Shown piece by piece: positions 2,416-32,420 of a stretch of 41,930 bases of DNA. How positions within the stretch are numbered: the first letter of the stretch is position 1; each line of letters begins with the position of its first letter. The position numbers and the translations under genes were made by a program. Source of the DNA: a bacterium (GTDB lineage: Bacteria; Patescibacteriota; Microgenomatia; Levybacterales; UBA12049); assembly GCA_030698775.1 (NCBI GenBank), contig JAUYMJ010000101.1, positions 1 through 41,930 of the forward strand, given 5' to 3'. The notes beneath the pieces were generated by a model. The model was not told where the DNA came from, did not search any database, and saw only the letters and a program-made list of their open reading frames with translations.

Positions 2416-2419
2416 ACCT

Positions 2420-3733: not shown

Positions 3734-3761
3734 GAGTGAAAAGCAAGAGAATCTGGGTTTA

Positions 3762-3790
3762 TTTACAACCAAATCGAGTAAATCTATAAT
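3762..3790 (+). promoter_or_regulatory. Sigma-70-type promoter of the SDR/C-methyltransferase unit, predicting a leaderless mRNA
   Basis: TTTACA at 3762-3767, a 17-bp spacer, and a perfect TATAAT at 3785-3790. The ATG at 3800 begins nine bases after the -10 box, so the expected start site is at most about three bases upstream of the codon. No ribosome-binding site fits in that space. Confidence 0.75.
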
Positions 3791-3799
3791 AGTCATAAC

Positions 3800-16224: not shown

Positions 16225-17187
16225 TCATATCACAGATTCTGTTTTTTTAAACACCCAGGATTTAAGAAGATCAAAAAAACCAATAAGACTTCCCAATATC
16301 ACCGCAAAATCGGCGAGTATTTGTAAAAATGGCAATAAGACAATAGCTTGCCAGATTTTTACGTATTTAAAATTTTTTTTAATAGCCCACAGAATATAGA
16401 CCCAACCGGACATAATAAGAAATAGCAGTAGGAATAATGAACCCCCTGTAATGTATAAAAACAGTAAGCCCAGGAAAAAAATATATCGCAAAAACAAAAA
16501 TATCACCTTTAGTCTAATTAATCCTGATTGCATATCTCCGAGAGCAAAACGAAAAAACATCATAAATGCTCCTAGAGGACTTTTGGGAGGAATCCAATAG
16601 ACTACTGCTTGTTTACAAAAAGCTATATTAGCTGAGTAACGTTCTAAGTTCTTTGCAAATACATAATCCTCGTTATGTGAGAATTGCTCCGGAAAGCCCG
16701 ATCGTAATTTCCAAGTAGACTTCCTTATCGCCATGGAGCGAGATGCTGGCAAAAATGTTTTTTTGTTCACTCTATCTGGCATCACCAACGCATATGGCAC
16801 AAGTGATCTCTCAAACGCCGTTTTTGCTCTACCCTTATAATACCCTGCTACAACGTCAATATTTCTGGATTGAAGGGGTTTCGTGATTTCTTCTACCCAT
16901 TTCTTTTCAAGAATACAGCCAGCATCTGATAAGAGAATTATTTTATTTCTGGATCTTTTAATCCCAAAATTCCGCCCTACAGATCTGTTCCCAACTTTTG
17001 TAAAAATACGAATCGTAAGCTGAACCTTTTTACTAAATTGCTTTATTATCTCTACTGTACGATCAATCGATCCTCCATCAACAATGATTACCTCATTTGG
17101 TATGGTTGTTTGACCAGCTACAGATGCAAGAAATATTTGAATTGACTGCTCTTCATTGAGCACTGTACAAACCAGCGTTGTTCTCAT
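16225..17187 (-). CDS. GT2 family glycosyltransferase with C-terminal membrane helices
   Basis: A 320-residue protein. The GT-A core has CTVLNEEQSI, IIVDGGSIDRT and LSDAGC (in place of a plain DxD), then SHNEDYVFAKNLE. The last 110 residues form about three membrane segments. It resembles membrane-anchored glycosyltransferases of exopolysaccharide clusters that work on the cytoplasmic face. ATG at 17187 is preferred over the TTG codon at 17190. The start lies inside the 3' end of the upstream CDP-sugar epimerase gene (35-base overlap), which ties it to CDP-dideoxyhexose metabolism. It may transfer that sugar (inference). Confidence 0.88.
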   Translation of the reverse strand: MRTTLVCTVLNEEQSIQIFLASVAGQTTIPNEVIIVDGGSIDRTVEIIKQFSKKVQLTIRIFTKVGNRSVGRNFGIKRSRNKIILLSDAGCILEKKWVEEITKPLQSRNIDVVAGYYKGRAKTAFERSLVPYALVMPDRVNKKTFLPASRSMAIRKSTWKLRSGFPEQFSHNEDYVFAKNLERYSANIAFCKQAVVYWIPPKSPLGAFMMFFRFALGDMQSGLIRLKVIFLFLRYIFFLGLLFLYITGGSLFLLLFLIMSGWVYILWAIKKNFKYVKIWQAIVLLPFLQILADFAVILGSLIGFFDLLKSWVFKKTESVI

Positions 17188-18223
17188 CAAAAAAATGCGT
17201 AAATCCGTTTTTATTTTCTTTAAGCCACTGAAATAACATTCTTATTCCAGAAGATACGGTGGTCTTGGGTGTCCATCCAAAATCTTTTTTTGCTTTTGCG
17301 ATGTCTGCGTAGAAAATTTTTTGGTCCCCTTGCCTCCAGGGGAGATACGTTGCATTTATTTTTTCCCCGAGGATCTCTTCAATCATCGGACCAAATTCCG
17401 ACCAGACGGAGATCGTGTTTTTTATCCCTCCACCGATATTATATATTTCACCCGAAGTAGTTCTGATACTTTCACATGCTCGGTCAATTGCCTCAAGAAG
17501 ATCGTCTATGTACAGAAGATCTCTTACCTGTTTTCCATTTCCATAAATTGTAACACGCTTCTTAAGCATTGCAGATATCAATAACCAAGCAACCCACCCC
17601 TGATCTTCAATACCGAATTGGTGAGGACCAAAGATGCATGATTGACGAAAAACTATATTTTTTAACCCATAAATTCTTGCATAGTCTCTCACGTACTGGT
17701 CAGCAGATCCCTTCGAGCACGCATATGGTGTATAAAAGTCCAATGGCATATTTTCACTCACTCCCTGTTTTTCCCTTGCAAACTGATATCTCAGTTTATT
17801 TTCTTTGATTGGAAGATACGAGAGTGATCCGTACACTTTATTTGTTGAACCATAAATGAGGATTGCCTTACTTTTCTCTCTTCGCATAATTTCAAGTAAG
17901 TTTATGGTACCAAGAAGATTCGTATTGAAATCAAATAGTGGGTCTTTGATTGATGTCGTAACTGCCACTTGTGCAGCCATATGAAGTATGATGTCAGCGT
18001 TTTTTACTGCCTCTGTTAAATCCTTGGAGGGACGAGAAATATCACCTAAGACAATATTCGGTTTTCTGCTTTTTGAGCTACGCAGCCATTGAACGTTTTC
18101 TTTACTTCCTTTCCGGAAAAAGTTATCATATATTGTTACTTCACATTTTTTACGTAAAAAATGTGCCGCAGCATTTATTCCTATAAACCCCGCACCACCA
18201 GTAATTAAAATCTTTTTTTTCAT
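17153..18223 (-). CDS. rfbE: CDP-paratose 2-epimerase-like SDR (CDP-tyvelose epimerase family)
   Basis: A 356-residue extended SDR. It has GGAGFIG (9-15), GSTNKVYG (125-132) and Tyr167/Lys171. The stretches FRQSCIFGPHQFG, EDQGWVAWL and GNGKQVRDLLYIDDL are strongly characteristic of CDP-paratose 2-epimerase (Tyv/RfbE), which interconverts CDP-paratose and CDP-tyvelose by C2 oxidation and reduction. It lies divergent to glucose-1-phosphate cytidylyltransferase, the first enzyme of CDP-hexose synthesis. An upstream in-frame ATG at 18298 lies before the predicted promoter, so 18223 at MKKKILITGG is chosen. If the real substrate is a branched CDP sugar, the C2 epimerase chemistry would still fit. 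Confidence 0.85.
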   Translation of the reverse strand: MKKKILITGGAGFIGINAAAHFLRKKCEVTIYDNFFRKGSKENVQWLRSSKSRKPNIVLGDISRPSKDLTEAVKNADIILHMAAQVAVTTSIKDPLFDFNTNLLGTINLLEIMRREKSKAILIYGSTNKVYGSLSYLPIKENKLRYQFAREKQGVSENMPLDFYTPYACSKGSADQYVRDYARIYGLKNIVFRQSCIFGPHQFGIEDQGWVAWLLISAMLKKRVTIYGNGKQVRDLLYIDDLLEAIDRACESIRTTSGEIYNIGGGIKNTISVWSEFGPMIEEILGEKINATYLPWRQGDQKIFYADIAKAKKDFGWTPKTTVSSGIRMLFQWLKENKNGFTHFFDENNAGLYSAQ

Positions 18224-18273
18224 ACATTTCCGGGATCGGAAAGAACTAGTAGCAAAAAAATTATTCTTCAGTG

Positions 18274-18282
18274 AGTATACCA
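18274..18282 (-). promoter_or_regulatory. Extended -10 promoter for the CDP-sugar epimerase/GT2 unit
   Basis: The minus strand reads TGG then TATACT (18279-18274), an extended -10 box. The predicted leader to ATG 18223 is about 44 bases, so this unit is not leaderless. No good -35 is seen. Confidence 0.5.
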
Positions 18283-18298
18283 CACTATCTTTCCCCAA

Positions 18299-18327
18299 TT
18301 GCTTTTTACATGACCGTGATTTAGAAT
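18299..18327 (+). promoter_or_regulatory. Probable promoter of rfbF and the following GT2
   Basis: TTGCTT at 18299-18304, a 17-bp spacer, and TAGAAT at 18322-18327. The ATG at 18341 begins 13 bases after the -10 box, leaving a leader of only about seven bases. It is divergent to the minus-strand epimerase promoter. Confidence 0.5.
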
Positions 18328-18340
18328 TACTAATATTTCA

Positions 18341-19117
18341 ATGAAGACAATAATTCTCTGTGGTGGGCTAGGGACGAGACTGAAAGAAGAAACAGAATTC
18401 AAGCCCAAGCCAATGGTATATGTCGGTGATAAACCAATTATCTGGCATATCATGAAGATATATGCACACTATGGATTCAACGAATTTATCTTGGCGCTCG
18501 GGTATAAAGCTGATTACATAAAAGAATTTTTTCTCAACCAAAAAGCCTTCACTTCGGACTTTACCTTGGATACTTCAACTCATGAGACAATATATTTTCG
18601 CAATGACAGACAAACGGTGGATGACTTTAAGATCACATTCGTTGACACGGGACAAGATACCTTGCCGGGTGAACGGATACTGCTTTGCAAAAAATATGTT
18701 CCTGAAAAGGACAAATTTTTTATGGTTACCTATGGTGACGGAGTGACCGATCTTGATATTAAAAAACTTGTAGATTTCCATAAATCCCAAAAGACGATCG
18801 GCACAATCACTGGAGTCCATCCACGTTCAAAGTACGGCTTGGTAAATGTACAAAAAAATAACCGAGTTTCCGGATTTATTGAAAAACCTGTCCTTTCGGA
18901 TTGGGTAAATGGAGGCTACATGGTTTTTGAGCGGGGGGTTTTTGACTTACTTGAACCTCATCAATATGAATTTGTCGCTCTCAATAAATTAGTAAAGAAA
19001 AAACAGCTTTCTTTATACAAACATGACGGTTTTTGGTTCGCAGTAGATACATATAAGGAGCTTGAAGACCTGAATAAAATATGGAGTAAAAAAAATCCAC
19101 CGTGGAAAAAATGGTAA
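18341..19117 (+). CDS. rfbF: Glucose-1-phosphate cytidylyltransferase
   Basis: A 258-residue nucleotidyltransferase. CGGLGTRLKEET (7-18) followed by KPKPMVYVG and IIWHIM is the RfbF form of the sugar-nucleotide pyrophosphorylase signature, distinct from RmlA or GalU. YGDGVTD (131-137) binds the metal-nucleotide, and FIEKP is also conserved. It makes CDP-glucose from CTP and glucose-1-phosphate, the entry step to CDP-3,6-dideoxyhexoses (abequose, paratose, tyvelose, ascarylose) and to CDP-yersiniose-type branched sugars. The usual next enzyme, CDP-glucose 4,6-dehydratase (RfbG), is absent from the window. The following GT2 gene is 38 bases downstream and probably cotranscribed. Confidence 0.92.
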   Translation: MKTIILCGGLGTRLKEETEFKPKPMVYVGDKPIIWHIMKIYAHYGFNEFILALGYKADYIKEFFLNQKAFTSDFTLDTSTHETIYFRNDRQTVDDFKITFVDTGQDTLPGERILLCKKYVPEKDKFFMVTYGDGVTDLDIKKLVDFHKSQKTIGTITGVHPRSKYGLVNVQKNNRVSGFIEKPVLSDWVNGGYMVFERGVFDLLEPHQYEFVALNKLVKKKQLSLYKHDGFWFAVDTYKELEDLNKIWSKKNPPWKKW

Positions 19118-19155
19118 AGCAAAATGTTGTGTAAGATCACATCTATGAGAACGGC

Positions 19156-20064
19156 ATGAAAAAGATTATCAACATTGTTATTCCTGCATTCAATGAGGAG
19201 TTGGTAATTCAAGAATTGACACGCCGGCTAAGTTTACTTATGGACAAGCTTCCAAAGTATACATTTGAGGTGATCGTTGTTGAGAATGCATCTACAGACG
19301 ACACCTTAAAAGAATTGCTTCGCGCCCGAAAGAAAGACCAAAGATTTAAGATACTGCAACTTTCAACAAATTATGGATGCGACGGGGCAATTGTTGCGGG
19401 GGTTCACTACGCGAGAGGAGACGCCGTGATTATTATGATGGCTGATCTTCAGGACGTACCCGAATTAATTCCCGAGTTTTTAAAACGGTGGGAGGAAGGA
19501 TACGATATAGTCTATGGAATTGTAAAAAAACGCGTCCATATGGGATTGATGCGTAGATTTGGGACCTTCTTATTTTATAAAATTATGAGCAAGCTCTCAA
19601 AAGGTCTTATTCCGGAAAATGTCAGTGATTTCCGATTGATTGACCGAAAAGTGTATAGGGTTATTCTTTCGATGCCAGAGCACAATAAATTTTTTAGGGG
19701 GCTTGTTATGTGGACCGGATATAAAAAAATTGGCATCCCATTCATACGTCCAGACAGAATTGCCGGCAAGTCAAAAGCGGATCTCCCGACAATGCTCAGC
19801 GTTGCGCTAAACGGCATTATATCTTTCAGCTCACTTCCGCTGAGAATATCCTGGCTTATTGCAGGTCTCTTTATTTCCGGAATGCTCATCTCATTAATTG
19901 TCCTAAGGTTTCAACTGAGTCTGATATTTTTTTCACTTTCTCTTGTGACAATCCTGATTTCAATCCAAAACGAATATATAGGAAGAATCCTTGAGGAGGT
20001 AAGAGGTAGACCTCATTTTGTTGTCCAAAACACCTATGGATTTTCTAAAACAAAGAAGATCTAG
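19156..20064 (+). CDS. Polyprenyl-phosphate glycosyltransferase, GtrB/ArnC-like GT2 with two membrane helices
   Basis: A 302-residue protein. The GT-A domain starts NIVIPAFNEE and has VVENAS (41-46) and the acidic ADLQD (96-100), with DFRLIDRKV further on. Two hydrophobic helices at about 230-275 are followed by the family's closing motif NEYIGRILEEVRGRP. GtrB/ArnC/DpmA enzymes charge undecaprenyl phosphate with one sugar from a nucleotide donor, producing the substrate of GT-C transferases on the outer face. Its place after rfbF suggests a CDP-hexose or its derivative as donor (inference). It ends 21 bases from the end of the convergent ThDP enzyme gene. Confidence 0.92.
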   Translation: MKKIINIVIPAFNEELVIQELTRRLSLLMDKLPKYTFEVIVVENASTDDTLKELLRARKKDQRFKILQLSTNYGCDGAIVAGVHYARGDAVIIMMADLQDVPELIPEFLKRWEEGYDIVYGIVKKRVHMGLMRRFGTFLFYKIMSKLSKGLIPENVSDFRLIDRKVYRVILSMPEHNKFFRGLVMWTGYKKIGIPFIRPDRIAGKSKADLPTMLSVALNGIISFSSLPLRISWLIAGLFISGMLISLIVLRFQLSLIFFSLSLVTILISIQNEYIGRILEEVRGRPHFVVQNTYGFSKTKKI

Positions 20065-20085
20065 CAGAAGCCAGTAAAATGTCAA

Positions 20086-21879
20086 CTATCGATCTTTTGG
20101 CTTCGCAAGCATGTTCTCAAATAACTCCTCTTTATCCAAAAAGGGAAACATATCCTCATATGGACGTGAAACCATAGTGCCGTCAGCTTTTTTTTCTGAT
20201 GCTGTTCTGGGAATCAAAAGCTGCCACTCAGGGGTCATAACCTCGCAAAGCACTGGTCCGTTGAACGCTAGCGCTTCTTGAATCTTCTTATCAACCTCAT
20301 TTACATTACTAATTTTTATCCCTTTGATTTCATATGTCTTTGCTACATCCATTAAATTAGGGCACCATACACCCGTTTTTGGGCCCTCACCAATAAGTCT
20401 CCCCTCCATGAAATTCCTTTGCGTCAGTCTTATTAGTGAATAGCCATTATTATTAAAGACAAATACCTTAACCGGAAGCTTATTTTGCCTAATGGTAGAA
20501 AATTCCTGAATATTCATCTGGAGACTACCATCACCTGTTATAACTATTGTCCGTTTTCTTTTATTCGCAAGACAAACGCCTATACCCGCCGGCCAGTACC
20601 CCATCGTTGAGATGCCGCCTGTTGTGATAAATCGCTGGCCAGGCTTGATTTTCCAAGCTTGTGATGCAACATGAAAACATCCGCCCGTATCGACCAGGAC
20701 GACATCGTTTTCTGAAGCAAATCTTGTTAATCTGTCCACAAAATAGTATGAATTGACCGGCTTTTCTTTTTTATAGCTTGATAAAACCACGGGGTATTTC
20801 TTCCTCCAGTTTTTGCATGCAGCTATCCACCTCGAATAATCCTTTTGCTCCTTTGTTGAATACTGCGACAAGAGGGATAGGAAAAATTCTTTCGCATCTG
20901 AATTGATCCGCACTGAAATACCTAAATCCGGTTTCATAAGTTCTTTTTTGTCGATGTCAACGACAACTTTTTTTGCGTTTCTGCCAAAATCGGACGGAGT
21001 GTGGCCGGTGAGTGACGTTGCCAGTCTGCAACCCACCGCTATTATTAGGTCAGAATTCTGGATAGCAAAATTTGCTGCACGCTCCCCATATGTTCCTGGC
21101 CTCCCGACATAGAGTTTATGATCGCTAGGAAGTAAATCAATTCCCAAACGGGACGTTAAAACCGGAATTTCTATTTTCTCAATTACTTGATAAAACTCCT
21201 CTATTCCTCCAGATATCCTTACTCCCTGTCCGACGAGGAATAATGGACGCTTAGCTTTTGAGAGTAGATTAAGCGCATCTTTAACTTTTTTATCCGATAG
21301 GTCACCGTTTTTGTGTTGGTTCAGAAATGAAAAACTTTTCCTTGGGGATCCGGAAATTTCTTTTCCCTGCAGATTAAGTGGAACATCAAGCCAAACTGGA
21401 CCGGGCCGACCTTCTTTTGCCAAATAGTACGCTTTGTGAAGATATTCAGGGACCTTTTGAGGGTCATCAATGGTTACAAAGTATTTTGTGACACTCTGAA
21501 CAAGAGGTTTAATATTGATGCCCTGAACACCGTATTGTCTGATTTTTGTCTTCTCTTCGTATTGCACATTTGCAAGAGGTGACTGCCCTGAAAGAACCAT
21601 GAGAGGAGCAGAGTCCACCCATGCTCCTACGACACCGTTCATGACGTTTACCGCACCCGGACCAGCTGTAACTAAAGCAACTCCGATTTTATTGGTAAAC
21701 CTTGCATATGCTTCTGCCGACATACCGGCAGCCTGCTCATGATGCATGCAAATTGGCCTGATCTGCTTATTTCTATACACCGCGTCGTTGAGGAACATTG
21801 CCTGGCCACCAGTGATCATAAAAATTGAGTCAACCCCTTTTTTTACGATAAAGTCGATTATATAGTCTGCAACAGTCAT
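20086..21879 (-). CDS. ThDP-dependent acetolactate-synthase-like enzyme, YerE-like branched-sugar candidate
   Basis: A 597-residue protein with the three ThDP-enzyme domains. Glu48 in HHEQAAGMSAEAYAR activates the cofactor. The C-terminal domain has ITGDGSLQMN (GDG at 449-451) and FNNNGY (475-480), which bind Mg-diphosphate. The middle FAD/DHAP-like domain runs about 195-340. The family decarboxylates a 2-oxo acid and adds the acyl group to a carbonyl acceptor. YerE of the CDP-yersiniose pathway does this on a CDP-4-keto-3,6-dideoxyhexose. Here the gene is coupled by ATGA to a pyruvate aldolase gene within an operon, and CDP-sugar genes flank it. That supports sugar chain branching rather than valine synthesis, as no other ilv gene is seen. 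Confidence 0.88.
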   Translation of the reverse strand: MTVADYIIDFIVKKGVDSIFMITGGQAMFLNDAVYRNKQIRPICMHHEQAAGMSAEAYARFTNKIGVALVTAGPGAVNVMNGVVGAWVDSAPLMVLSGQSPLANVQYEEKTKIRQYGVQGINIKPLVQSVTKYFVTIDDPQKVPEYLHKAYYLAKEGRPGPVWLDVPLNLQGKEISGSPRKSFSFLNQHKNGDLSDKKVKDALNLLSKAKRPLFLVGQGVRISGGIEEFYQVIEKIEIPVLTSRLGIDLLPSDHKLYVGRPGTYGERAANFAIQNSDLIIAVGCRLATSLTGHTPSDFGRNAKKVVVDIDKKELMKPDLGISVRINSDAKEFFLSLLSQYSTKEQKDYSRWIAACKNWRKKYPVVLSSYKKEKPVNSYYFVDRLTRFASENDVVLVDTGGCFHVASQAWKIKPGQRFITTGGISTMGYWPAGIGVCLANKRKRTIVITGDGSLQMNIQEFSTIRQNKLPVKVFVFNNNGYSLIRLTQRNFMEGRLIGEGPKTGVWCPNLMDVAKTYEIKGIKISNVNEVDKKIQEALAFNGPVLCEVMTPEWQLLIPRTASEKKADGTMVSRPYEDMFPFLDKEELFENMLAKPKDR

Positions 21880-22880
21880 GATTTGGTCCTACTCAGTTCA
21901 AGGGCAATTTGAATAATTTTGTCCTCTTGTCCCGCAACTACTTTTCTTTTACCTAGTTCCATGAGCACGTCTCTTGGGTCAAGTCCAAACCTTTCTGCAG
22001 CCCTCTTAGCGTGGGGAGCAAAACCAGAAAATACTCCCGCCAATCCGCTTGTAAGAGTAATAGAATTTATTGAGGGGCTATTCTGAATTTTAGAGATAAT
22101 ATTCTCACTGTTATCCATAAGCTGATATAAATCCAACCCGGTTTTTATTCCCATCTTCTCAAGCACCGCAACAACAACCTCCAACTGACAATTCCCTGCA
22201 CCGGCGCCCATTCCCCGAGAGGTAGCATCAATAATTGTCGCCCCTGCTTTAACTGCAGCAATTGAATTCGCTACAGCCATACCCAGATTATTATGCGCGT
22301 GAAATCCCGTTTCTATATGTAACCCTTGAGTAAGCACGGATATCTTTTCTGTAACTTCATCTGGAAGGCAAGTTCCTGCCGAATCCATAAGCAAAACCCC
22401 AAAAGCCCCATAATCCTGCATTTTCTTTGCCTCCTCAAGAAGTATTTCCGCTTTAGCCATATGCGACATCATAAGCACACCAAACGTTCTAAGCCCCTTT
22501 TTTACAGAAAATTCTATATGCTGGCGAGTGATTGTGGCTTCTGTACAGTGGCTTGCAACCATAAGCACCTCAGCGCCATTTTGTATCGCTTCTTCAATAT
22601 CAGTGATCGTCCCAAAACCAGGGATCAGGAAAGCTCCCAGTTTTGTTCTGTGTAGCTCTTTTTTTGCATACTTCAAATACTCTGTGTCTGAGAGAAGTGA
22701 GAACCCCAAATGAAGAGAGGATGCACCCAATCCGTTCCCGTGCCCAACGATAAGAATCTGTGTTTTCGCTATTTCTGCAGCTTTTGCATATGACGCAACA
22801 TGTTCCCTTGTAAACTGATGGGAAATCGCATGCGATCCGTCCCTAAGCGTTGAATCGATCACTAACACTTTCTTCTTCAT
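21876..22880 (-). CDS. mhpE: 4-hydroxy-2-oxovalerate aldolase (MhpE/DmpG/BphI family)
   Basis: A 334-residue class II pyruvate aldolase. DSTLRDGSHA (9-18) supplies the catalytic Arg13, Asp14 and His17, GHGNGLGASS (46-55) is family-specific, and His194/His196 in HAHNN bind the divalent metal. The DmpG-like C-terminal domain is present (GRGMGAGAGN onward). The enzyme reversibly joins pyruvate and acetaldehyde into 4-hydroxy-2-oxopentanoate. In catabolism it sits with aromatic meta-cleavage genes, none of which occur here. It follows the acylating acetaldehyde dehydrogenase by nine bases and overlaps the ThDP enzyme start. A biosynthetic direction is inferred from this setting. Confidence 0.92.
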   Translation of the reverse strand: MKKKVLVIDSTLRDGSHAISHQFTREHVASYAKAAEIAKTQILIVGHGNGLGASSLHLGFSLLSDTEYLKYAKKELHRTKLGAFLIPGFGTITDIEEAIQNGAEVLMVASHCTEATITRQHIEFSVKKGLRTFGVLMMSHMAKAEILLEEAKKMQDYGAFGVLLMDSAGTCLPDEVTEKISVLTQGLHIETGFHAHNNLGMAVANSIAAVKAGATIIDATSRGMGAGAGNCQLEVVVAVLEKMGIKTGLDLYQLMDNSENIISKIQNSPSINSITLTSGLAGVFSGFAPHAKRAAERFGLDPRDVLMELGKRKVVAGQEDKIIQIALELSRTKS

Positions 22881-22889
22881 AGTAAAACG

Positions 22890-23762
22890 TTAGAGAAGCC
22901 GTTTCTTTGCATACTCCTCAGCGACCCTGACAGCTGCGCTATTCATCACGTCAAGATTGCCGGCAAAAGCCGGGAGATAATCCCCACGTCCGGTTACCTC
23001 TGAAATAATGACGAGCATTCCATTTTGCACAATTGGCTTATGTAGGAGTGCAAACCCGGGTACATATTTTTTCAGACGTTTTACAGCAGCAAATATTTCT
23101 TTTTGAATCAACGTAATATCCGAAGTGTGAATTTTGGCATAAATCGTATTTTGCATGTGAATGGGAGGATCGGACGGATTAAGAATAACGATCGCTTTTG
23201 CCTTTGGGACAAACGTCAGCTCCATTATCGCTTCAGACGTGAGACGTGTATATTCATCAATATTGCTTCGTGTGCCGATTCCAGCGGACTGGGAAGAGAT
23301 ACTTGAAACAATTTCTACATATCCTGTTTGGTGTTGTGCCTTCATCAAGGCGTTAATAATTGGTATCGTCGCTTGCGCACCGCAAGTAATCATGTTGACA
23401 TTATCTTCCTCCAAACACGCTTTGAGATTTACTGAAGGGACACACAGTTTTCCGACCTTCGACGGTGTGAGATCTATAGTAAATTTCTTCAGCTTCTTAA
23501 GTATCGGTGCATGCTCCGTATGAATCTTTGCAGACGTGGCATCAAAAACTATTTCGCAGCTGTCAGGGTTATTGATGATTGCATTTATAGAATCGTATGC
23601 CGTCGGAACACCCATCTTCTGTGCTCTCTTTATATTTTTCGATTTCGGGTTGATACCGGTGAAGATACCGCACTCGAGCACCGGAGAGCGGAGTATCTTG
23701 ACCAACAAGTCGCTTCCGATGTTGCCCGTACCGATGATACCTGTTTTAACTTTTTTTATCAT
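22890..23762 (-). CDS. mhpF: Acylating acetaldehyde dehydrogenase (MhpF/DmpF/BphJ family)
   Basis: A 290-residue protein. GTGNIG (11-16) binds NAD, Cys127 in TCGAQATIP is the catalytic thiol, SISSQSAGIGTRSNIDE and GRGDYLPAFAGNLD are family signatures. It reversibly interconverts acetaldehyde plus CoA with acetyl-CoA, and in characterised systems forms a channelling complex with the pyruvate aldolase encoded next to it. The first gene of the three-gene operon, it would provide acetaldehyde from acetyl-CoA if the pathway runs biosynthetically. The message has a short leader with AGGA about seven bases before ATG 23762. Confidence 0.92.
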   Translation of the reverse strand: MIKKVKTGIIGTGNIGSDLLVKILRSPVLECGIFTGINPKSKNIKRAQKMGVPTAYDSINAIINNPDSCEIVFDATSAKIHTEHAPILKKLKKFTIDLTPSKVGKLCVPSVNLKACLEEDNVNMITCGAQATIPIINALMKAQHQTGYVEIVSSISSQSAGIGTRSNIDEYTRLTSEAIMELTFVPKAKAIVILNPSDPPIHMQNTIYAKIHTSDITLIQKEIFAAVKRLKKYVPGFALLHKPIVQNGMLVIISEVTGRGDYLPAFAGNLDVMNSAAVRVAEEYAKKRLL

Positions 23763-23782
23763 CAGAAATCCTACTTGTGCTT

Positions 23783-23811
23783 ATTATAGTCTCTTACTAT
23801 ACCATAATTAA
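23783..23811 (-). promoter_or_regulatory. Promoter and ribosome-binding site of the dehydrogenase-aldolase-ThDP operon
   Basis: The minus strand has TTAATT (23811-23806), a 17-bp spacer and a perfect TATAAT (23788-23783). The predicted leader of about 14 bases carries AGGA at a normal distance from ATG 23762. A plus-strand promoter for the next unit lies about 30 bases further right. Confidence 0.6.
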
Positions 23812-23839
23812 TACTCTCGTAACTTCGAAAATAATCACA

Positions 23840-23848
23840 TGCTATAAT
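23840..23848 (+). promoter_or_regulatory. Extended -10 promoter of the SDR/transketolase unit
   Basis: TGC followed by a perfect TATAAT (23843-23848) forms an extended -10 box. The ATG at 23873 begins 24 bases downstream, giving a leader of about 18 bases without a clear Shine-Dalgarno sequence. No convincing -35. Confidence 0.55.
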
Positions 23849-23872
23849 GACTGTGTTTTTCCTGGCCTAATA

Positions 23873-24760
23873 ATGAAAAAGCTATTAATAACAGGTGGAA
23901 ACGGGTTTATCGGGAAAAATCTTGTAGAGCAATTGCATAATGAGTATCGAATATACGCACCGTCACGTCTTCAACTGGATCTATTAGATGATGTATCTGT
24001 CCAGAAGTTTCTGAAAACGCATCGATTTGATGTGATTATTCATGCTGCTATCCATATCTCAAATTCAAAGGAAGTGAGGGATCAGGAGCAGATCCTTAAA
24101 AATAATTTGAGAATGTTTATTAATTTATATAATTTTAGGCAATGCTTCGGTAAGATGTTTTATTTTGGCTCGGGTGCAGAGTACGATAAAACCAAGATGC
24201 CACCCAGAGTAAAAGAAAAGTTCTTTGGCAGCTTCATACCGAAAGATGACTATGGATTCTCAAAATATATCTGCGCACAACTTACTGAAAATTCAAGTAA
24301 TATATATAATTTAAGACTTTTTGGTTGCTTTGGGAAATATGAGGATTGGAGAAAACGGTTTATATCAAATGCACTTTGTAAAGCAATATTTAACACAAAT
24401 ATCACGCTTGTACAAAATGTATATTTTGACTATCTCTATATCAATGACCTCGTTCGTATCGTACGATGGTTTATTCAAGCAGATAAACCAACATTTAGGA
24501 CATACAACGTGTGTACAGGCCAATCTATTGACCTACTTACGATTGCAAAAAAAATAGTTGTGCAAACGAAGAAGCCGATTGTGATAAATGTAAAAAAATC
24601 AGGGTTTAAAAATGAATACACTGGAGACAACAAAAGATTGCTTAAAGAGATAAAGCGTTTTTCGTTTACTCCGATAGATACGGCGATCACTGAGCTTTTT
24701 GATTGGTACAGGATAAATAGAAAATTAATTGATAAAAAATCGCTTTATATCTTTGGCTAG
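23873..24760 (+). CDS. SDR family nucleotide-sugar reductase/epimerase, ketoreductase-like
   Basis: A compact 295-residue extended SDR. GGNGFIG (8-14) binds NAD(P), GSGAEY (99-104) supplies the catalytic Ser region, and Tyr127/Lys131 form the YxxxK pair. The short length, FDYLYINDL and the overall pattern resemble GDP-fucose-synthase and CDP-paratose/abequose-synthase reductases rather than 4,6-dehydratases. In this neighbourhood it could reduce C4 of a CDP-4-keto-dideoxyhexose, or the side-chain ketone left after ThDP-dependent acyl transfer (the YerF role). Both are inferences. The frame extends upstream to 23777, but that start precedes the promoter. The transketolase gene follows 14 bases later. 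Confidence 0.85.
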   Translation: MKKLLITGGNGFIGKNLVEQLHNEYRIYAPSRLQLDLLDDVSVQKFLKTHRFDVIIHAAIHISNSKEVRDQEQILKNNLRMFINLYNFRQCFGKMFYFGSGAEYDKTKMPPRVKEKFFGSFIPKDDYGFSKYICAQLTENSSNIYNLRLFGCFGKYEDWRKRFISNALCKAIFNTNITLVQNVYFDYLYINDLVRIVRWFIQADKPTFRTYNVCTGQSIDLLTIAKKIVVQTKKPIVINVKKSGFKNEYTGDNKRLLKEIKRFSFTPIDTAITELFDWYRINRKLIDKKSLYIFG

Positions 24761-24774
24761 TACCTTAGGGTTAA

Positions 24775-25602
24775 ATGTATGTCCGAAGAATGAAATCACT
24801 TCCAAGTATTGCAACAAAGATTCGGGAGTCAGTAATCCGCATGTCCTATGTATCACAAAGTGCACATATGGGCGGGTCATTGTCCTGTGTTGAGATCCTT
24901 ACCGCATTATATTTCTCTGTACTCAAAGTGTATCCCAAAAATCCGTTACATCCGGGAAGAGACAGATTTATTTTCAGCAAGGGACATGACTCAAAAGCCC
25001 TCTATGCAACACTCGCAGAACGTGGTTTTTTTAAAAAGACAGTGCTAGCAAGTTATGAAAAAAATAATAGCCTGCTCCCTGGACATCCCACCCGGCAATG
25101 TGTTCCGGGTGTTGAAATTACATCCGGATCTTTAGGCCATGGATTGTCTATCGCTGCCGGAATGGCATTCACGCTCAAACAGGATAGCAAAAATGCCAGG
25201 GTTTTTACCTTACTTAGCGATGGTGAGTGTAATGAAGGATCAACCTGGGAAGCCATACTTTTTGCAGGCCATCATCGATTGGAAAACCTTACTGTGATAG
25301 TTGACTACAATAAACTTCAAGGATATGGATTTGTAAAGAATGTGCTCAATCTAGAACCATTGCTTCAAAAGTGGACAAGCTTCAACTGGGCAGGACGGGT
25401 TGTTGATGGACATAATCTCGATGCGCTTGTAGAAATGCTGCATGATCTTCCGATAACAAAAAATATGCCCTCGGTAATCATTGCAAATACGACTAAGGGA
25501 AATGGCGGAGTAAAAAGGTATCTCAATTCTATCGGATCACAATATCACCCACCTACTAGTGAGGATATGGCTGATCTTCATCTTAGCGCAGATTGGTTAT
25601 GA
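24775..25602 (+). CDS. Transketolase-like N-terminal subunit
   Basis: A 275-residue protein covering only the ThDP-diphosphate-binding half of transketolase. Visible motifs are SAHMGGSL (29-36), FSKGHDSKALY (67-77), GSLGHGLS (118-125) and the metal/diphosphate site SDGECNEG (148-155). The C-terminal half is encoded next, overlapping by four bases. AGGG lies five bases before ATG 24775. Split transketolases transfer a glycolaldehyde (C2) unit between sugars. Inside a CDP-dideoxyhexose cluster it may act in sugar branching rather than the pentose phosphate pathway, though a housekeeping role cannot be excluded. Confidence 0.92.
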   Translation: MYVRRMKSLPSIATKIRESVIRMSYVSQSAHMGGSLSCVEILTALYFSVLKVYPKNPLHPGRDRFIFSKGHDSKALYATLAERGFFKKTVLASYEKNNSLLPGHPTRQCVPGVEITSGSLGHGLSIAAGMAFTLKQDSKNARVFTLLSDGECNEGSTWEAILFAGHHRLENLTVIVDYNKLQGYGFVKNVLNLEPLLQKWTSFNWAGRVVDGHNLDALVEMLHDLPITKNMPSVIIANTTKGNGGVKRYLNSIGSQYHPPTSEDMADLHLSADWL

Positions 25603-26525
25603 GGTACTCGTTTATATCCACGCTCCTTAAGTCAGCAAAGAAGAATCCTAGGATAATGCTTCTTACTGGAGATGTTGGCTACTCCGTTTTCGATACGTAT
25701 AGTACAGAGTTACCCGCACAATATCTCAATTGTGGCGTTGCGGAACAAAATATGACCGGCGTTGCAGCAGGACTGGCAATCGAAGGGAAAATCCCATTCA
25801 TCTATTCAATAATCCCATTTGTCACAATGCGAAATTTTGAACAGATCAGAAATGACATTTGTTATCAGAATCTTCCGGTAAAGATCGTCGGTGTAGGATC
25901 GGGATTTTCCTATGGTCCATACGCTCATACACACCACGCTCTGGAAGATATCGCGCTCATGCGAAGCCTTCCCAATATGACAATATTTTCCCCATCAGAT
26001 CCAATTGAGACAGCATTTGTAATTCGGGCTTCAATAAAGATAAATGGTCCTGTGTATATTCGTTTGGGAAAGACGGGAGAACCGGAATTACACGAAAAAA
26101 CGGTGAAGTTAAAAGTAGGAGCAGGATGCATCATTCATGAAGGAAAAGATATTGCGATATTTTCAACCGGATCAATAACGAAAACTGCACTGGATGCAGC
26201 AAAAATACTCAAAAGAACCGGAATAAACTGCTGTGTGGTCAGTATGCATACATTAAAACCGCTTGATAAGTTTCTCATCTTAAAACTGGCGAAACATTCC
26301 CGCGCTATGTTCAGCCTGGAAGAACATTCCGTTATTGGTGGTCTGGGAAGCACAATAGCTGAGATACTTGCAGAAAATCAGATGAGATTACTTTTTCGAA
26401 GGATTGGTGTTCCTGATAGGTTCACAAATAAAGTCGGGAATCAGGAATACATGAGAATAAAAAATCAACTTTCGGCTAAACAAGTCGTTACTACTATACG
26501 AAAATCACTTGTCGAATTTGTTTAA
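25599..26525 (+). CDS. Transketolase-like C-terminal subunit
   Basis: A 308-residue protein containing the pyrimidine-binding and C-terminal transketolase domains. Glu49 in CGVAEQNMTG is the ThDP-activating glutamate. YAHTHHALEDIALMR and the LEEHSVIGGLGS stretch match split transketolase and DXS-like subunits. ATG 25599 overlaps the stop of the N-terminal subunit gene (ATGA); a TTG six bases earlier is less likely. The two proteins should assemble as one enzyme. The 3' end overlaps the convergent aminotransferase-fold gene by 21 bases. Confidence 0.92.
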   Translation: MRYSFISTLLKSAKKNPRIMLLTGDVGYSVFDTYSTELPAQYLNCGVAEQNMTGVAAGLAIEGKIPFIYSIIPFVTMRNFEQIRNDICYQNLPVKIVGVGSGFSYGPYAHTHHALEDIALMRSLPNMTIFSPSDPIETAFVIRASIKINGPVYIRLGKTGEPELHEKTVKLKVGAGCIIHEGKDIAIFSTGSITKTALDAAKILKRTGINCCVVSMHTLKPLDKFLILKLAKHSRAMFSLEEHSVIGGLGSTIAEILAENQMRLLFRRIGVPDRFTNKVGNQEYMRIKNQLSAKQVVTTIRKSLVEFV

Positions 26526-27722
26526 GAAGTCCTTCAGCGTTTTCTGCAATTTATCCAAATGTTGCTTCTCAAGGCCATGGTGACATCCAATGAGGAAACC
26601 CCGCTCCATGACCTCTTGGGCAACCGGAAAAGATTTTCCGTTACTTCTAAAATGCATTTCTTTAAACGCTGGCTGTTTAGTAACTACTCCAGTAAAAATG
26701 GGTCTTGTTTGAATATTTTCCTTTTCCAAAAATGAAACTATTTCAAACCTACTAAATGGTGCATTGTCTCTTATGGTGAGTGGAAATGCGAGCCATTGTG
26801 TCCTAACAGATTTATCTTGCTTAGGAAGAATAAAAAACTTCTCGTACTTCTGAAAAAATTTATAAAGCGATGCAAAATTATATTCACGGGTTTTTCTGAA
26901 TTTAGATAGTTTTTTTAACTGTGCGTTTCCGAATGCTGATCCTAATTCTATCGGTAAAAAATTGTACCCCAGGTCAGAAAAAATGAATTTAGCATCATAC
27001 TTAATATTGTCAATACGTGCTGAATAACGGCTATCAATATCTTCTGTTTCACCCATTTTTGCAGAGCCTCTCCCCCAACCCCGAAGTGTTTTTGCACGGT
27101 CGGCCCATACCTTGTTATCGAGAAGAATCATACCTCCACCGCCTCCTGCAGTAATAATATGTGAACCATAAAAACTTGTAGTTGAAATATCCGAATAATA
27201 TCCAGTTGGTTTTTTAAAATATGTGGCTCCTAATGTATCACATGAGTCTTCAATTACATATAAACTGTGTTTTTTTGCAAATCGTTTTAAGCGCACAAGA
27301 TCAGGAACATTTCCCAAAAGCAACGGTATCATCAACGCTTTGGTCTTTGACGACAATAATTTCTCAGCCTGGTTGAGATCGATTGTGTACTTCCCTTCTT
27401 CGACATCCGCAAATACAGGGATTAATCCACATTCCAGTAAAGGAGTCAACGTCGTTGAAAACGTAAGGATCGGAGTAATGACTTCAGACCCCTTCGGAAG
27501 GTCAATCAACCGAACACTCAACAGGTTTGCGCTCGAACCGGAATTAACCATTACCCCGTACTTCTTCCCAAACAATTTTGCAACACTTTTTTCAAATTCT
27601 AAAGTTTCTCTCCCGAGTATCGTTCTTTTCTCCCTGAGGACGCGAATTACCCTTTTTTCTTCTTCTGTATCGTGGACTGCTTTAGCATACGGAACTCTTA
27701 AACTCTCCCTTTGACGTTTCAT
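26505..27722 (-). CDS. RfbH/ColD-like PLP-dependent sugar 3-dehydratase lacking Fe-S cysteines
   Basis: A 405-residue DegT-fold protein. At the Schiff-base site the usual lysine is His188 (SFYGSHIITAGGGGG), as in ColD and in E1/RfbH, which remove the C3 hydroxyl of 4-keto-6-deoxy sugars instead of transaminating. EDSCD (158-162) holds the PLP-contacting Asp159. The cysteine cluster that holds the 2Fe-2S centre of RfbH is missing: after LRGWGRGS the loop has no cysteine. The mechanism may thus be ColD-like, but beside rfbF the substrate is probably CDP-linked. It would create the 3,6-dideoxy-4-keto sugar of this locus. ATG 27722 is chosen because ATG 27731 lies inside the -10 box. Confidence 0.85.
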   Translation of the reverse strand: MKRQRESLRVPYAKAVHDTEEEKRVIRVLREKRTILGRETLEFEKSVAKLFGKKYGVMVNSGSSANLLSVRLIDLPKGSEVITPILTFSTTLTPLLECGLIPVFADVEEGKYTIDLNQAEKLLSSKTKALMIPLLLGNVPDLVRLKRFAKKHSLYVIEDSCDTLGATYFKKPTGYYSDISTTSFYGSHIITAGGGGGMILLDNKVWADRAKTLRGWGRGSAKMGETEDIDSRYSARIDNIKYDAKFIFSDLGYNFLPIELGSAFGNAQLKKLSKFRKTREYNFASLYKFFQKYEKFFILPKQDKSVRTQWLAFPLTIRDNAPFSRFEIVSFLEKENIQTRPIFTGVVTKQPAFKEMHFRSNGKSFPVAQEVMERGFLIGCHHGLEKQHLDKLQKTLKDFLNKFDK

Positions 27723-27729
27723 CGACAAC

Positions 27730-27758
27730 ATTATATCTTTGAAAACATCTATTTACAA
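27730..27758 (-). promoter_or_regulatory. Promoter of the 3-dehydratase gene, predicting a leaderless mRNA
   Basis: The minus strand reads TTGTAA (27758-27753), a 17-bp spacer and perfect TATAAT (27735-27730). ATG 27722 begins seven bases after the -10 box, so the start site should fall almost on the codon. The alternative in-frame ATG at 27731 overlaps the -10 hexamer. Confidence 0.7.
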
Positions 27759-27814: not shown

Positions 27815-29569
27815 ATGTTAGACCCCTACCGAATGGTAGTCGTAAATGTTATCTCATCATGTATTCTCATCGTTGGTTTACTTTTGTTTAAATACGTCTA
27901 TCCTAAAAAAAATGTTCCTCTCATCGTTATTCTCATACTCATATCTCTCCTTCCATTAGTAAGTCTTCTCCGTAAAGGAAGCTACGAGAGCGGCCTGTTA
28001 TCAGAACACGTTGGGGTTGCGATGTCTTTTTTCGATACGGTTTCAGAAGGAAATATTCTGCCAACATGGTCTCAAAAAGCATGTTCCGGATACGGATGCC
28101 CGCTGTTTATTTTTCATTATTTTCTTCCTTTCTCTATAAGCTATGTCTATCATTTGCTTGGCTTTTCCTTTCTTGCAAGCGTTAAATTGCTTCTTGCTTC
28201 GTCTTTTGTTGCTTCTGGAATAACCATGTATCTCTGGATGAAGGAGGAGGGAGGAAAACTGACCGGGTTTGTTTCTGCATTATTTTTTCTCTTTGCTCCA
28301 TACCATCTTGCTGACTTACACTTCAGAGTCTCAATTGGGGAAATACTCTCTATGGCACTCCTACCGATCATTTTTCTTTCAATTAAGAAGCTGTCTGTTC
28401 GGTTTGAGTGGAGATATTTTTTTATCGGCCTTATGAGCACCTCGATGATCATTCTTTCCCACCATATAACACTTTTTGCATCACTTCCTATCGTCGCAGT
28501 CTATAGCCTGATTTGTGTGAGGAAAAATAAAAGTAAATGGGAAAAGATCATTCAGATTGGAACAATGCTAGGGATTGGGATGCTTCTCGTAGCGTATTAT
28601 TGGATCCCGATTGTCGTGGAGTCAAAATTTATGCGCCAATCACTTACCCAGGGTGTTCTTTTTAGCCCGTTTTGGTCGTATATCTATTCACCCTTTGAGT
28701 ATAGATTTGGGCTTCTGTTTCAAGGTCATCGTGGGGAATTGTATCCTAATCTTGGGTATATCCACATTGTTGTCTTAATAATGGCGGGTATCTTGCTATT
28801 AAAAAATAAAATTAATGGGAAAATAAAACCATTTTTCCTCAGCTTCTTTTTGCTATTCATTTTTTATTTTTTTATGACGCAATCAATTTCAGAACGTGTT
28901 TGGAAAATAATTCCATTCCTTGAAAATGCCGGGTTCGCATGGAGACTGATGATTGAGGTTTCATTTATAACGGCAGTTATTGCCGGGCTCGTTGTAAAAC
29001 AACTAAACAAACAATGGATAACAATACTCCTTTGTTTTTTTGTTGTCTGGCTTACGATTTTAAATTGGGGTAACAGGAGAATGATTTCGGAACAGAATGA
29101 TGCGTATTTCAGGAAAGTCCCGCTTTACGAAGAAGCTCCTTGCAGGGTAGAACTTTCGACTCCGATCTGGGTTGACCCATGCGCTCCCTGGATAGGGAAA
29201 TATCCCAAAGAGCATTTGCAAATACTAGCAGGCAGAGCTGAGATAAAGGAAATATATAGAGACACTATGCGCCATGAGTATATCGTGTATAGTAAATCGC
29301 GCGCTACTTTGAAGGAAAATACCTACTATTTTCCGGGATGGCTAATGACTATAAATGGATCACCGTCTCCTGTTCGCACAAACGTATCGGGGTTTAATGG
29401 CCTTATGATTTTTGATACAGAAAAAGGTCTACAAAAGGTTTCATTCCATTTTGGTGACTCCCCAATAAGAGCGCTTGCAAAACAAGTTTCATTCGTGTCT
29501 TTTTGTGTTCTATTCATTTACGTAATCTTTTGGTCTCAAATCCTTAAAAAACTAAAAAAACTATCATGA
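27815..29569 (+). CDS. Polytopic YfhO/GT-C-like membrane protein, tandem copy 1
   Basis: A 584-residue protein with about eleven to thirteen hydrophobic helices. It resembles the membrane proteins annotated as PTPS-related (YfhO/GT-C-like). The large extracytoplasmic loop has SEGNILPTWSQKACSGYGCP and is followed by LFAPYHLADLHFRVSIGE. The C-terminal extracytoplasmic piece carries YYFPGWLMTINGS before the last helix, the same module as in the YfhO-like proteins of the window. It probably transfers or processes lipid-linked sugars outside the membrane (inference). It overlaps its downstream paralog as ATGA, and both begin with a similar N-terminus (M--PY-MV-VN). Confidence 0.78.
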   Translation: MLDPYRMVVVNVISSCILIVGLLLFKYVYPKKNVPLIVILILISLLPLVSLLRKGSYESGLLSEHVGVAMSFFDTVSEGNILPTWSQKACSGYGCPLFIFHYFLPFSISYVYHLLGFSFLASVKLLLASSFVASGITMYLWMKEEGGKLTGFVSALFFLFAPYHLADLHFRVSIGEILSMALLPIIFLSIKKLSVRFEWRYFFIGLMSTSMIILSHHITLFASLPIVAVYSLICVRKNKSKWEKIIQIGTMLGIGMLLVAYYWIPIVVESKFMRQSLTQGVLFSPFWSYIYSPFEYRFGLLFQGHRGELYPNLGYIHIVVLIMAGILLLKNKINGKIKPFFLSFFLLFIFYFFMTQSISERVWKIIPFLENAGFAWRLMIEVSFITAVIAGLVVKQLNKQWITILLCFFVVWLTILNWGNRRMISEQNDAYFRKVPLYEEAPCRVELSTPIWVDPCAPWIGKYPKEHLQILAGRAEIKEIYRDTMRHEYIVYSKSRATLKENTYYFPGWLMTINGSPSPVRTNVSGFNGLMIFDTEKGLQKVSFHFGDSPIRALAKQVSFVSFCVLFIYVIFWSQILKKLKKLS

Positions 29570-31350
29570 TTTCTCCGTATAAGATGGTTCTTGTAAATCT
29601 TGCGCTCTCCGCGCTTATTTTTTTTGGAATAATTATCTATAGATACGTATTTCCAAAGAAAAAAGTTCCATTATTTCCTCTACTAATTCTTATCTCTATT
29701 CCTCCAATCATAAGCATATTACGAAAGGGTACATATGAGAGTGGAGATCTATCTTTGCATGCAAAGTTTGCCATGGTGTTCTATCAGTCGCTTAGGGACG
29801 GGCAGATAATCCCGCAGTGGGCTGATATTCTCTGTGGAGGTTTTGGTTGCCCTCAGTTTAGCTTCCTTTATATTCTACCTTACTATATAATATCATTTTT
29901 TCACTTTGTTGGTTTTTCGTTTCTCACAAGCACCAAAATATTCCTCATTGCCTCCTACATTGGCTCAGGTATTACTATGTTCGTGTTTATGAAAGACCTC
30001 ACCAAGAATGCTCTTGCGGCGCTCACGTCTGCAATTTTTTATCTCTTTGCACCATATCATTTGGTAGACATGCATTTCCGCGTCTCGATTGGAGAAGTAC
30101 TCGCATTCGTAATCCTCCCATTCTTTTTTTACGCTTCTAAGAAAACCGTAACAGAAAAAAATTACTTATGGATCTTTATTAATGCTCTCGTACTCAGCTT
30201 CCTGATATTAACCCATCAAGTAATCTCTACAGCCTCAATTCCGTTCATCGTAGCATATGCAGTTACTCTAGCTGTCTCTCCAAAAAAATACACGGGTGCT
30301 CTTATTCGTTTTTTTATCTCCTTGCTTGTCGGACTTTTTCTCTCTTGTTTTTATTGGCTCCCTATACTCTTTGAGGCAAAATTTGTTTCATATTTTTACA
30401 TGAAAAACGTGACTTTCGAGAGCTTTATAGGTTTCTTTTATGCACCTTGGAGATATGGTTTTCTCTTTCAGGGGCCAACAGGACACTTATCGTTCCTCTT
30501 GGGTTATGCGCAAATTGCTGTCATTGTAATCAGCGTTTTCCTTTTTGTTAAAAAAAAGGTCAAAGCTTCGGTAAAAACCTTTTTTCAATTCTTTCTCGTA
30601 TCTTTTTTTATCCTCTTTTTTTTGATTCAGTCACCAATGAAACCGATTGTTGATCATCTGCCTATAGTCAATAATTTTCAGATGGTCTACAGGATGCTCC
30701 TCATTCTTATGTTTTTTGTATCTGCACTCAGTGGATTTCTTTCTTTGCTGATAAAAAAAAAGTACATATATCTTCTTTGCGCTATTGCTATTTTATCCAC
30801 TATTCTTAATTGGGGGAACAGACGAATGATCCCTGAGATCACTGACCAGCATCTCCGCAGTGATATGATAGGATCATCAAACGGCCATGATTTGATTGTC
30901 CCGAAATGGGTAGATACAAAATACTCATGGAATATTCAGAAACCAAATGAACCGCTGCAACTTCTTTCCGGAACAGCTATAACCGAACAGATTTCCCATA
31001 CATCGAATTCAAGAGAATACCTTGTAAAAGCGGACACACAGGTAAAGATAAAAGAAAATACTTTTTTCTTTCCGGGATGGAAATTATACGTAAACGGAAA
31101 TGAAGAAAAATTCACCTACGAGGACAGCCAGTATAGCGGTGTTATGGTATTTTTCCTTCCCAAGGGTCTTTATGATATACAATTTGTGTATACTGATACC
31201 CCAATTAGACAAGCTGCTAAAATAATAAGCGTATTCACTTTCATTCTGATGATAAGTTTTCTTTTTGCCAAACTTGCAAAAAATAATAGGCAAAACCTTC
31301 CCTTACATTCTCTTCTGAAATTTAGTTCACGTGTCTTTCATGGTAAATAA
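29566..31350 (+). CDS. Polytopic YfhO/GT-C-like membrane protein, tandem copy 2
   Basis: A 594-residue paralog of the upstream protein. Shared blocks include LRKGTYESGDLSLHAKFAM, the loop DGQIIPQWADILCGGFGCP, LFAPYHLVDMHFRVSIGE, LNWGNRRMI and FFFPGWKLYVNGN near the C-terminus, all at the same places. The copies are clearly diverged, so this is an old tandem duplication rather than an assembly artefact. Conserved features that both retain are the best pointers to the active site: the acidic residue after SGL/SGD, the GCP turn, and DxHFRVSIGE. It starts in a four-base overlap with copy 1. The FkbM-like gene follows after 35 bases. Confidence 0.78.
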   Translation: MISPYKMVLVNLALSALIFFGIIIYRYVFPKKKVPLFPLLILISIPPIISILRKGTYESGDLSLHAKFAMVFYQSLRDGQIIPQWADILCGGFGCPQFSFLYILPYYIISFFHFVGFSFLTSTKIFLIASYIGSGITMFVFMKDLTKNALAALTSAIFYLFAPYHLVDMHFRVSIGEVLAFVILPFFFYASKKTVTEKNYLWIFINALVLSFLILTHQVISTASIPFIVAYAVTLAVSPKKYTGALIRFFISLLVGLFLSCFYWLPILFEAKFVSYFYMKNVTFESFIGFFYAPWRYGFLFQGPTGHLSFLLGYAQIAVIVISVFLFVKKKVKASVKTFFQFFLVSFFILFFLIQSPMKPIVDHLPIVNNFQMVYRMLLILMFFVSALSGFLSLLIKKKYIYLLCAIAILSTILNWGNRRMIPEITDQHLRSDMIGSSNGHDLIVPKWVDTKYSWNIQKPNEPLQLLSGTAITEQISHTSNSREYLVKADTQVKIKENTFFFPGWKLYVNGNEEKFTYEDSQYSGVMVFFLPKGLYDIQFVYTDTPIRQAAKIISVFTFILMISFLFAKLAKNNRQNLPLHSLLKFSSRVFHGK

Positions 31351-31385
31351 AGCGGTAAACAAATAATTACCAAAACAAAGCATAT

Positions 31386-32354: not shown

Positions 32355-32420
32355 AACCGTGTATATTCTCACTTGGAGGAAGACTGCCCAAGTTCACTCT
32401 TATCCTTATATAAAAAACGA

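Follow-up and report, generated by a model that had tools for sequence, protein, structure and literature searches.

A predicted donor cassette for a long-branched CDP-sugar

We analysed a 41,930-nucleotide stretch of DNA from a member of the Patescibacteriota (contig JAUYMJ010000101.1, hereafter the window), and we propose that its genes at 17153-27731 are likely to form a route to a branched sugar of the type made with ErwE, the published erwiniose carboligase. The predicted product, destined for a surface polysaccharide, is a cytidine diphosphate (CDP)-activated 3,6-dideoxy sugar that is branched at C4 and probably has ten carbons. The core of the locus is a triplet of closely spaced genes on the minus strand, running from 23762 down to 20086. 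These are a MhpF/DmpF-type acylating acetaldehyde dehydrogenase (22890..23762, minus; TIGR03215 361 bits against a cut-off of 282), a MhpE/DmpG-type 4-hydroxy-2-oxovalerate aldolase with the communication domain PF07836 (21876..22880, minus; TIGR03217 404 bits against a cut-off of 286), and a YerE/ErwE-like thiamine diphosphate (ThDP) carboligase (20086..21879, minus), whose first 4 bases are also the last 4 of the aldolase gene.

In the proposed scheme, MhpF would convert acetyl-CoA to acetaldehyde and hand it to MhpE, which would condense it with pyruvate to give 4-hydroxy-2-oxopentanoate, the pair working in the synthetic direction as a complex of the channelling DmpFG type. The acceptor, a CDP-4-keto-3,6-dideoxyhexose, would be supplied by an RfbF-like enzyme, a dehydratase not found in the assembly and an RfbH/ColD-like enzyme. 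The YerE-like ThDP enzyme would then decarboxylate 4-hydroxy-2-oxopentanoate and add a 3-hydroxybutanoyl unit to C4 of this sugar, after which a short-chain dehydrogenase/reductase (SDR) encoded at 23777-24760 would reduce the new ketone; a 2-epimerase and a split transketolase may alter this sugar or give rise to another branched one. What the sequences show is which gene families are present, that catalytic residues are kept, and how the genes co-occur and are related by phylogeny. We infer the scheme's substrates, direction and product, with the ThDP reaction carried over by analogy from the published work on ErwE.

The preliminary description of this DNA had read the MhpF-MhpE-ThDP genes as biosynthetic, with a CDP-4-keto-3,6-dideoxyhexose as acceptor and an erwiniose-type ten-carbon skeleton as outcome. 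These proposals gained support, since the triplet travels with RfbF, RfbG and RfbH across many phyla, the ThDP enzyme is YerE-like, and neither IlvC nor a DmpE-type hydratase was found in the genome. Every gene named there was also recovered in the window by family models and PDB matches. What had been overlooked was the split transketolase between the SDR and the RfbH-like gene, the failure to find RfbG, an RfbH-like enzyme without iron-sulfur (Fe-S) cysteines, and a possible epimerisation at C2.

Co-occurrence of the triplet with CDP-sugar genes

The window belongs to a 1.28 Mb, 89% complete genome from a phylum of small genomes, and its gene content was judged by family searches. In a survey of 287 genomes of the phylum, the window's own included, TIGR03217 exceeded its cut-off in three, and a close relative of the ThDP enzyme (60% identity) occurred in the same three only. 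Were the two other genomes drawn independently, the chance of such a coincidence would be about 1 in 40,000; as aldolase and ThDP relative share the same three genomes, the arrangement is not a matter of chance. In both other genomes, G019 and G256 (L093 and L120 of the scan below, with identical proteins), RfbF, RfbG and RfbH accompany the triplet, the RfbG and RfbF of G256 scoring under the curated cut-offs.

A wider scan, in which two short ThDP motifs were run against 84,980 species genomes, yielded 39 loci, among them an archaeal one (L122, 35% identity) that serves as an outgroup without the triplet. The co-occurrence figures describe one ThDP clade. MhpE lies beside the ThDP gene in all 38 loci of this clade (36 genomes), with an SDR-like gene between the two in L124, and MhpF lies upstream in 36 of the 36 loci whose contig reaches that far, L088 and L099 beginning inside MhpE. 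RfbF, RfbG and RfbH are all in reach in 15 of the triplet loci longer than 20 kb (n = 20); each of the remaining five has one or more of these genes, which in two cases sit right at the border of the stretch. Because the scan chose ThDP motifs and not their neighbours, the association was not built in.

The clade spans at least eight phyla, including Bacillota, Elusimicrobiota, Omnitrophota, Spirochaetota, Planctomycetota, Goldiibacteriota, Melainabacteria and several Patescibacteria lineages, with Lachnospiraceae and one planctomycete among the carriers of the cassette. Carriers also include the cultured Lachnotalea glycerini DSM 28816 (L098) and Butyrivibrio sp. WCD3002 (L119). Neither a Pectobacterium locus nor MMAR_2332 appeared among the loci of the ThDP-motif scan. 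No relative was found in viral contigs, and ThDP matches in plasmid records reached about 31% identity at best among the matches listed. Two genomes carry two near-identical copies of the triplet on different contigs (L087/L088 and L105/L106), through duplication or an assembly effect.

Branched sugars with ten or twelve carbons have been described in only a few bacteria, and with the cassette, genes can be assigned to the donor half of the route. Since the cassette occurs in many phyla, the true distribution of long-branched sugars is probably wider than the structures known so far would indicate. No earlier description of this broad distribution was found in the literature available to us. 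The cassette also offers naturally paired aldolases and carboligases with which chiral tertiary alcohols could be made.

The ThDP enzyme groups with YerE-like carboligases

The nearest solved relative of the window's ThDP enzyme is PDB 8rph (394 bits), followed by 5ahk (258 bits), which we take to be the YerE homologue of Pseudomonas protegens; acetohydroxyacid synthases (AHAS) score at most 252 bits. The CDG motif, given as unique to the YerE-like enzyme JanthE (PMC12247030), is carried by 8rph as described for JanthE. The curated acetolactate synthase model TIGR00118 was not passed, with 397 bits where 538 are needed, and IlvC was not found in the 89%-complete genome.

We built a ThDP tree of 60 rows, including 40 triplet-associated enzymes and four AHAS-like outgroup rows. 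The 40 enzymes formed one group with 100% support in the Shimodaira-Hasegawa-like approximate likelihood ratio test (SH-aLRT), placed inside the YerE-like rows and away from the AHAS-like outgroup; JanthE and a few others have long branches, and their own placement is unsure. A 34% relative first labelled AHAS-like (L046) also grouped with the YerE-like rows. Among the residues that never vary in the triplet group and are seldom seen outside it are Y107, F134, R244, P261, F402, H403, W409 and W429. Judged by its sequence, the window's enzyme is a YerE-like enzyme and not an acetolactate synthase. 

A second YerE-like ThDP gene, 32-48% identical to that of the window, lies near the triplet in L086, L097, L103, L108, L110, L116 and L123, which suggests that some clusters make two different branched sugars.

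The aldolase subfamily and its predicted stereochemistry

The catalytic and metal residues of the aldolase are kept in the window's MhpE. In the aldolase tree, 37 MhpE enzymes from sugar clusters formed one group (support 90/92), separate from eight catabolic MhpE (96/86), and its sister was a set of three Streptomyces enzymes (92/90). On the Streptomyces plasmids (L126, L130, L135), the dmpG region adjoins genes for a ketoacyl-acyl carrier protein synthase III and an acyl carrier protein, apparently a second biosynthetic setting for an aldolase-dehydrogenase pair.

The two groups of aldolases differ at two positions that are known from BphI, Leu-87 and Tyr-290. BphI numbering was mapped to the window through an alignment with DmpG, and the mapping depends on the offset of one residue between DmpG and BphI. 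The window's MhpE has Phe84 at the Leu-87 position and Phe284 at the Tyr-290 position. Across the sugar-cluster enzymes, the Tyr-290 position is Phe in 37 of 37, and the Leu-87 position is Phe in 20 and Tyr in 17; the three Streptomyces aldolases have Phe at both. The window thus departs from all eight catabolic controls and all four solved structures, which have Leu and Tyr. The tree shows a single change at these positions, so it is a lineage trait and not repeated convergence.

In BphI, stereocontrol is lost in the variants Y290F and Y290S, and the double variants L87N/Y290F and L87W/Y290F are active on the (4R) but not on the (4S) enantiomer (PMC3962088). By analogy, (4R)-4-hydroxy-2-oxopentanoate is the predicted donor made by the sugar-cluster MhpE; because neither L87F/Y290F nor L87Y/Y290F is among the variants we found described there, the predicted (4R) selectivity is an argument from related substitutions. 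Caryophyllose has the D-gulo configuration over the segment that would hold the aldol carbon (PMC9026286). A published configuration of erwiniose was looked for in the literature and not found. Erwiniose probably has the D-gulo configuration too, which would need a (4R) donor.

Taken together, we tentatively suggest, with somewhat less than even confidence, that the sugar-cluster MhpE form a natural biosynthetic aldolase subfamily that makes the (4R) product, the reverse of the catabolic (4S), by way of the positions of BphI Leu-87 and Tyr-290. With MhpF and a dedicated ThDP clade, this subfamily would constitute a phylum-crossing cassette for long-branched sugars.

A more distant aldolase of the HMGL type was seen in L080 (G172) at about 7600-8700. 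It is 34% identical to MhpE, scores 271 bits with TIGR03217, just below the cut-off, and lies near a weak RfbH-like gene.

The dehydrogenase favours a four-carbon branch

The catalytic Cys127 is kept in the window's MhpF, and only two positions set the sugar-cluster MhpF consistently apart from the catabolic enzymes. This closeness to catabolic sequences favours acetyl-CoA and acetaldehyde as substrates, and hence a pentanoate donor and a four-carbon branch. No aromatic-degradation genes lie beside the aldolase-dehydrogenase pair, and no DmpE-type hydratase was found in the genome.

The acceptor side of the pathway

The window encodes an RfbF-like glucose-1-phosphate cytidylyltransferase (18341..19117, plus), which scores 266 bits with TIGR02623, below the cut-off of 300 yet far above any other model, and shares 74% identity with RfbF from the related locus L086. 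Near it lies an SDR of the CDP-tyvelose (CDP-paratose) 2-epimerase family (17153..18298, minus; PDB 9rl0 334 bits and 1orr 276 bits, against at most 131 bits for other families), which suggests, from these family scores, that the product may be a C2 epimer. We considered this SDR as the missing RfbG and ruled it out, since it scores 81 bits with TIGR02622 and its nearest solved relatives are CDP-tyvelose 2-epimerases.

The RfbH/ColD-like enzyme dependent on pyridoxal or pyridoxamine phosphate (PLP/PMP) lies at 26505..27731 (minus; PRK15407 339 of 423 bits, PDB 3bcx best match). It has the motif SFYGSHIIT, in which a catalytic His replaces the aminotransferase Lys, and it lacks the Fe-S cysteines that are present in all other RfbH of the compared triplet loci. 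These cysteines are likewise missing in two relatives, in L041 and L044, both of which adjoin YerE-like genes. ColD works without a separate reductase, and by analogy the window's enzyme may do the same. The 2-epimerase, this unusual RfbH-like enzyme and the failure to find RfbG mean that the window's sugar resembles erwiniose in its skeleton at best, and what the organism finally makes may be something other than erwiniose.

The reductase-like SDR (23777..24760, plus; PF01370) belongs to a family found in 13 loci, the window included, in which it is often found next to a transketolase, to the ThDP gene of the triplet or to another YerE-like gene. By analogy with YerF, it is a candidate reductase of the new side-chain ketone.

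Several observations weigh against the ErwE-type route. Neither the window nor the rest of the 89%-complete genome yielded RfbG, the CDP-glucose 4,6-dehydratase; nothing in the genome scored above the TIGR02622 cut-off or was more than 31% identical to a related RfbG. The RfbF and RfbH-like proteins both score under their curated cut-offs. A five-carbon branch from propanoyl-CoA, or a different aldehyde, is possible. Finally, the split transketolase and the 2-epimerase have no proven place in the scheme.

The split transketolase and other readings of the locus

The split transketolase sits between the reductase-like SDR and the RfbH-like gene, with an N-terminal half at 24775..25602 (plus; PF00456, 1.5e-36) and a pyrimidine-binding and C-terminal half at 25593..26525 (plus; PF02779 and PF02780). 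It is possible, though rather doubtful, that it acts as a second branching enzyme, transferring a hydroxyacetyl unit, in the way suggested for miharamycin, to this CDP-4-keto sugar or a different one, with two branched sugars as the result; such a role concerns only 23777-27731 and is compatible with the ErwE-type route. The same order of SDR, transketolase halves and RfbH-like gene was found again in L169, whose C-terminal half is 53% identical to the window's (that of L091 is 50% identical). Several near relatives of the window also hold a second YerE-like gene by the same SDR family in place of the transketolase. Three more transketolases are encoded in the genome, two of them full-length and the third also split, and the window's does not belong to the firm 100/100 clade that five other split transketolases of the phylum form. 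These last two facts also argue against its being simply a housekeeping enzyme, which is possible as well. On the other hand, the four transketolases near RfbH or an SDR do not form a single clade, and branching of this kind has been proposed without an assayed example anywhere (PMC12247030). Since split transketolases are common in the phylum, their mere presence proves little. The further split transketolase of the genome (G000:C91, L167, about 9286-10954) has an SDR close by and is 33-38% identical to the window's.

A two-carbon, yersiniose-type branch is an unlikely explanation of the locus. Here the ThDP enzyme would take pyruvate as YerE does and place an acetyl group on C4, with MhpE and MhpF serving otherwise. 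YerE-like enzymes without the triplet do occur in otherwise similar CDP-sugar clusters (L040, L122). However, MhpE and MhpF are tied to one ThDP clade with its own invariant residues (38 of 38 loci), and at least seven triplet loci have a separate second YerE-like gene able to carry out the two-carbon reaction.

We regard a caryophyllose-like chain as very unlikely. In such a chain, the transketolase would join a two-carbon ketol to acetaldehyde, an isomerase would give a 4-deoxytetrose, MhpE would add pyruvate, and the ThDP enzyme would attach a six-carbon unit. Transketolase halves do lie immediately upstream of MhpF in L091 and L114, and in the window they lie alongside the triplet; moreover, MhpE residue 51, which is Leu in 35 of 37 sugar-cluster enzymes, departs from Leu in exactly L091 (Ile) and L114 (Ala), where the change possibly reflects a different aldehyde. 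The window's own MhpE nevertheless has Leu51, a transketolase is present in only 3 of 39 clusters, no isomerase was identified, and split transketolases are a common feature of the phylum.

Ordinary metabolism, that is, an acetolactate synthase with a catabolic meta-cleavage pair, is suggested by the family names alone and was rejected as highly improbable on family scores, phylogeny and genome content, including the TIGR00118 score, the lack of detectable IlvC and DmpE-type hydratase, and nucleotide-sugar genes alongside throughout.

Other features of the window

A GT2 glycosyltransferase of the PgfS/polyprenyl-phosphate transferase type lies at 19156..20064 (plus), with relatives in 19 compared loci. 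A second sugar block at 546-6048 holds a LegC/PseC-like aminotransferase, a GT2 gene, a gene of the UDP-glucose/GDP-mannose dehydrogenase family, a LegB-like SDR and a C-methyltransferase of the Methyltransf_13/14 type. Large membrane proteins of the YfhO or PTPS_related type, possibly GT-C-like transferases, occupy both flanks (7588-10536 and 27815-34601); 31386-32354, within the latter, has no Pfam match.

Comparison with known systems

Erwiniose is produced by Pectobacterium atrosepticum (PMC8657720; PMC9912281). The preliminary description had held that no enzymes were assigned to such a route, which is incorrect, as ErwE is reported for exactly this carboligation. In a review by Bjarnesen and colleagues, 2025 (PMC12247030), which cites Steitz et al. 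2022, ErwE of this organism couples a hydroxy-functionalised 2-oxo acid to CDP-4-keto-3,6-dideoxyglucose on the way to erwiniose. According to the same account, it prefers 4-hydroxy-2-oxo acids, 4-hydroxy-2-oxopentanoate included, and refuses pyruvate, the assay acceptor being a keto-sugar analogue. The core joining step is therefore not new, and what we add is the distribution of the cassette and a testable prediction of aldolase stereochemistry.

With the ErwE route, our proposal for the window shares the ThDP carboligation of a 4-hydroxy-2-oxo acid onto CDP-4-keto-3,6-dideoxyglucose and a surface polysaccharide setting. The window differs in its additional 2-epimerase, its RfbH-like enzyme without Fe-S cysteines, its split transketolase and the absence of a detectable RfbG. 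The YerE route to yersiniose A in Yersinia pseudotuberculosis likewise combines a YerE-like ThDP enzyme and a reductase with a CDP-sugar cluster of the RfbF/RfbG/RfbH type, but YerE uses pyruvate or 2-oxobutyrate (PMC12247030), whereas the window has a dedicated aldolase-dehydrogenase pair for what would be a longer donor. MMAR_2332 of Mycobacterium marinum, linked to caryophyllose, is YerE-like with an ErwE-like donor preference (PMC12247030); its product has twelve carbons, unlike the one predicted for the window.

The DmpFG, BphIJ and MhpEF pairs share with the window their folds, catalytic residues, communication domain and gene order. In contrast to them, the window's aldolase falls in a separate clade that has Phe at Tyr-290 and Phe or Tyr at Leu-87, with no aromatic-degradation neighbours. 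The split transketolases proposed for miharamycin and amipurimycin resemble that of the window as split genes in a sugar-branching setting. The 13 split-transketolase candidates of the review are all from Streptomycetes (PMC12247030), whereas the window comes from a small-genome bacterium and carries CDP-sugar genes.

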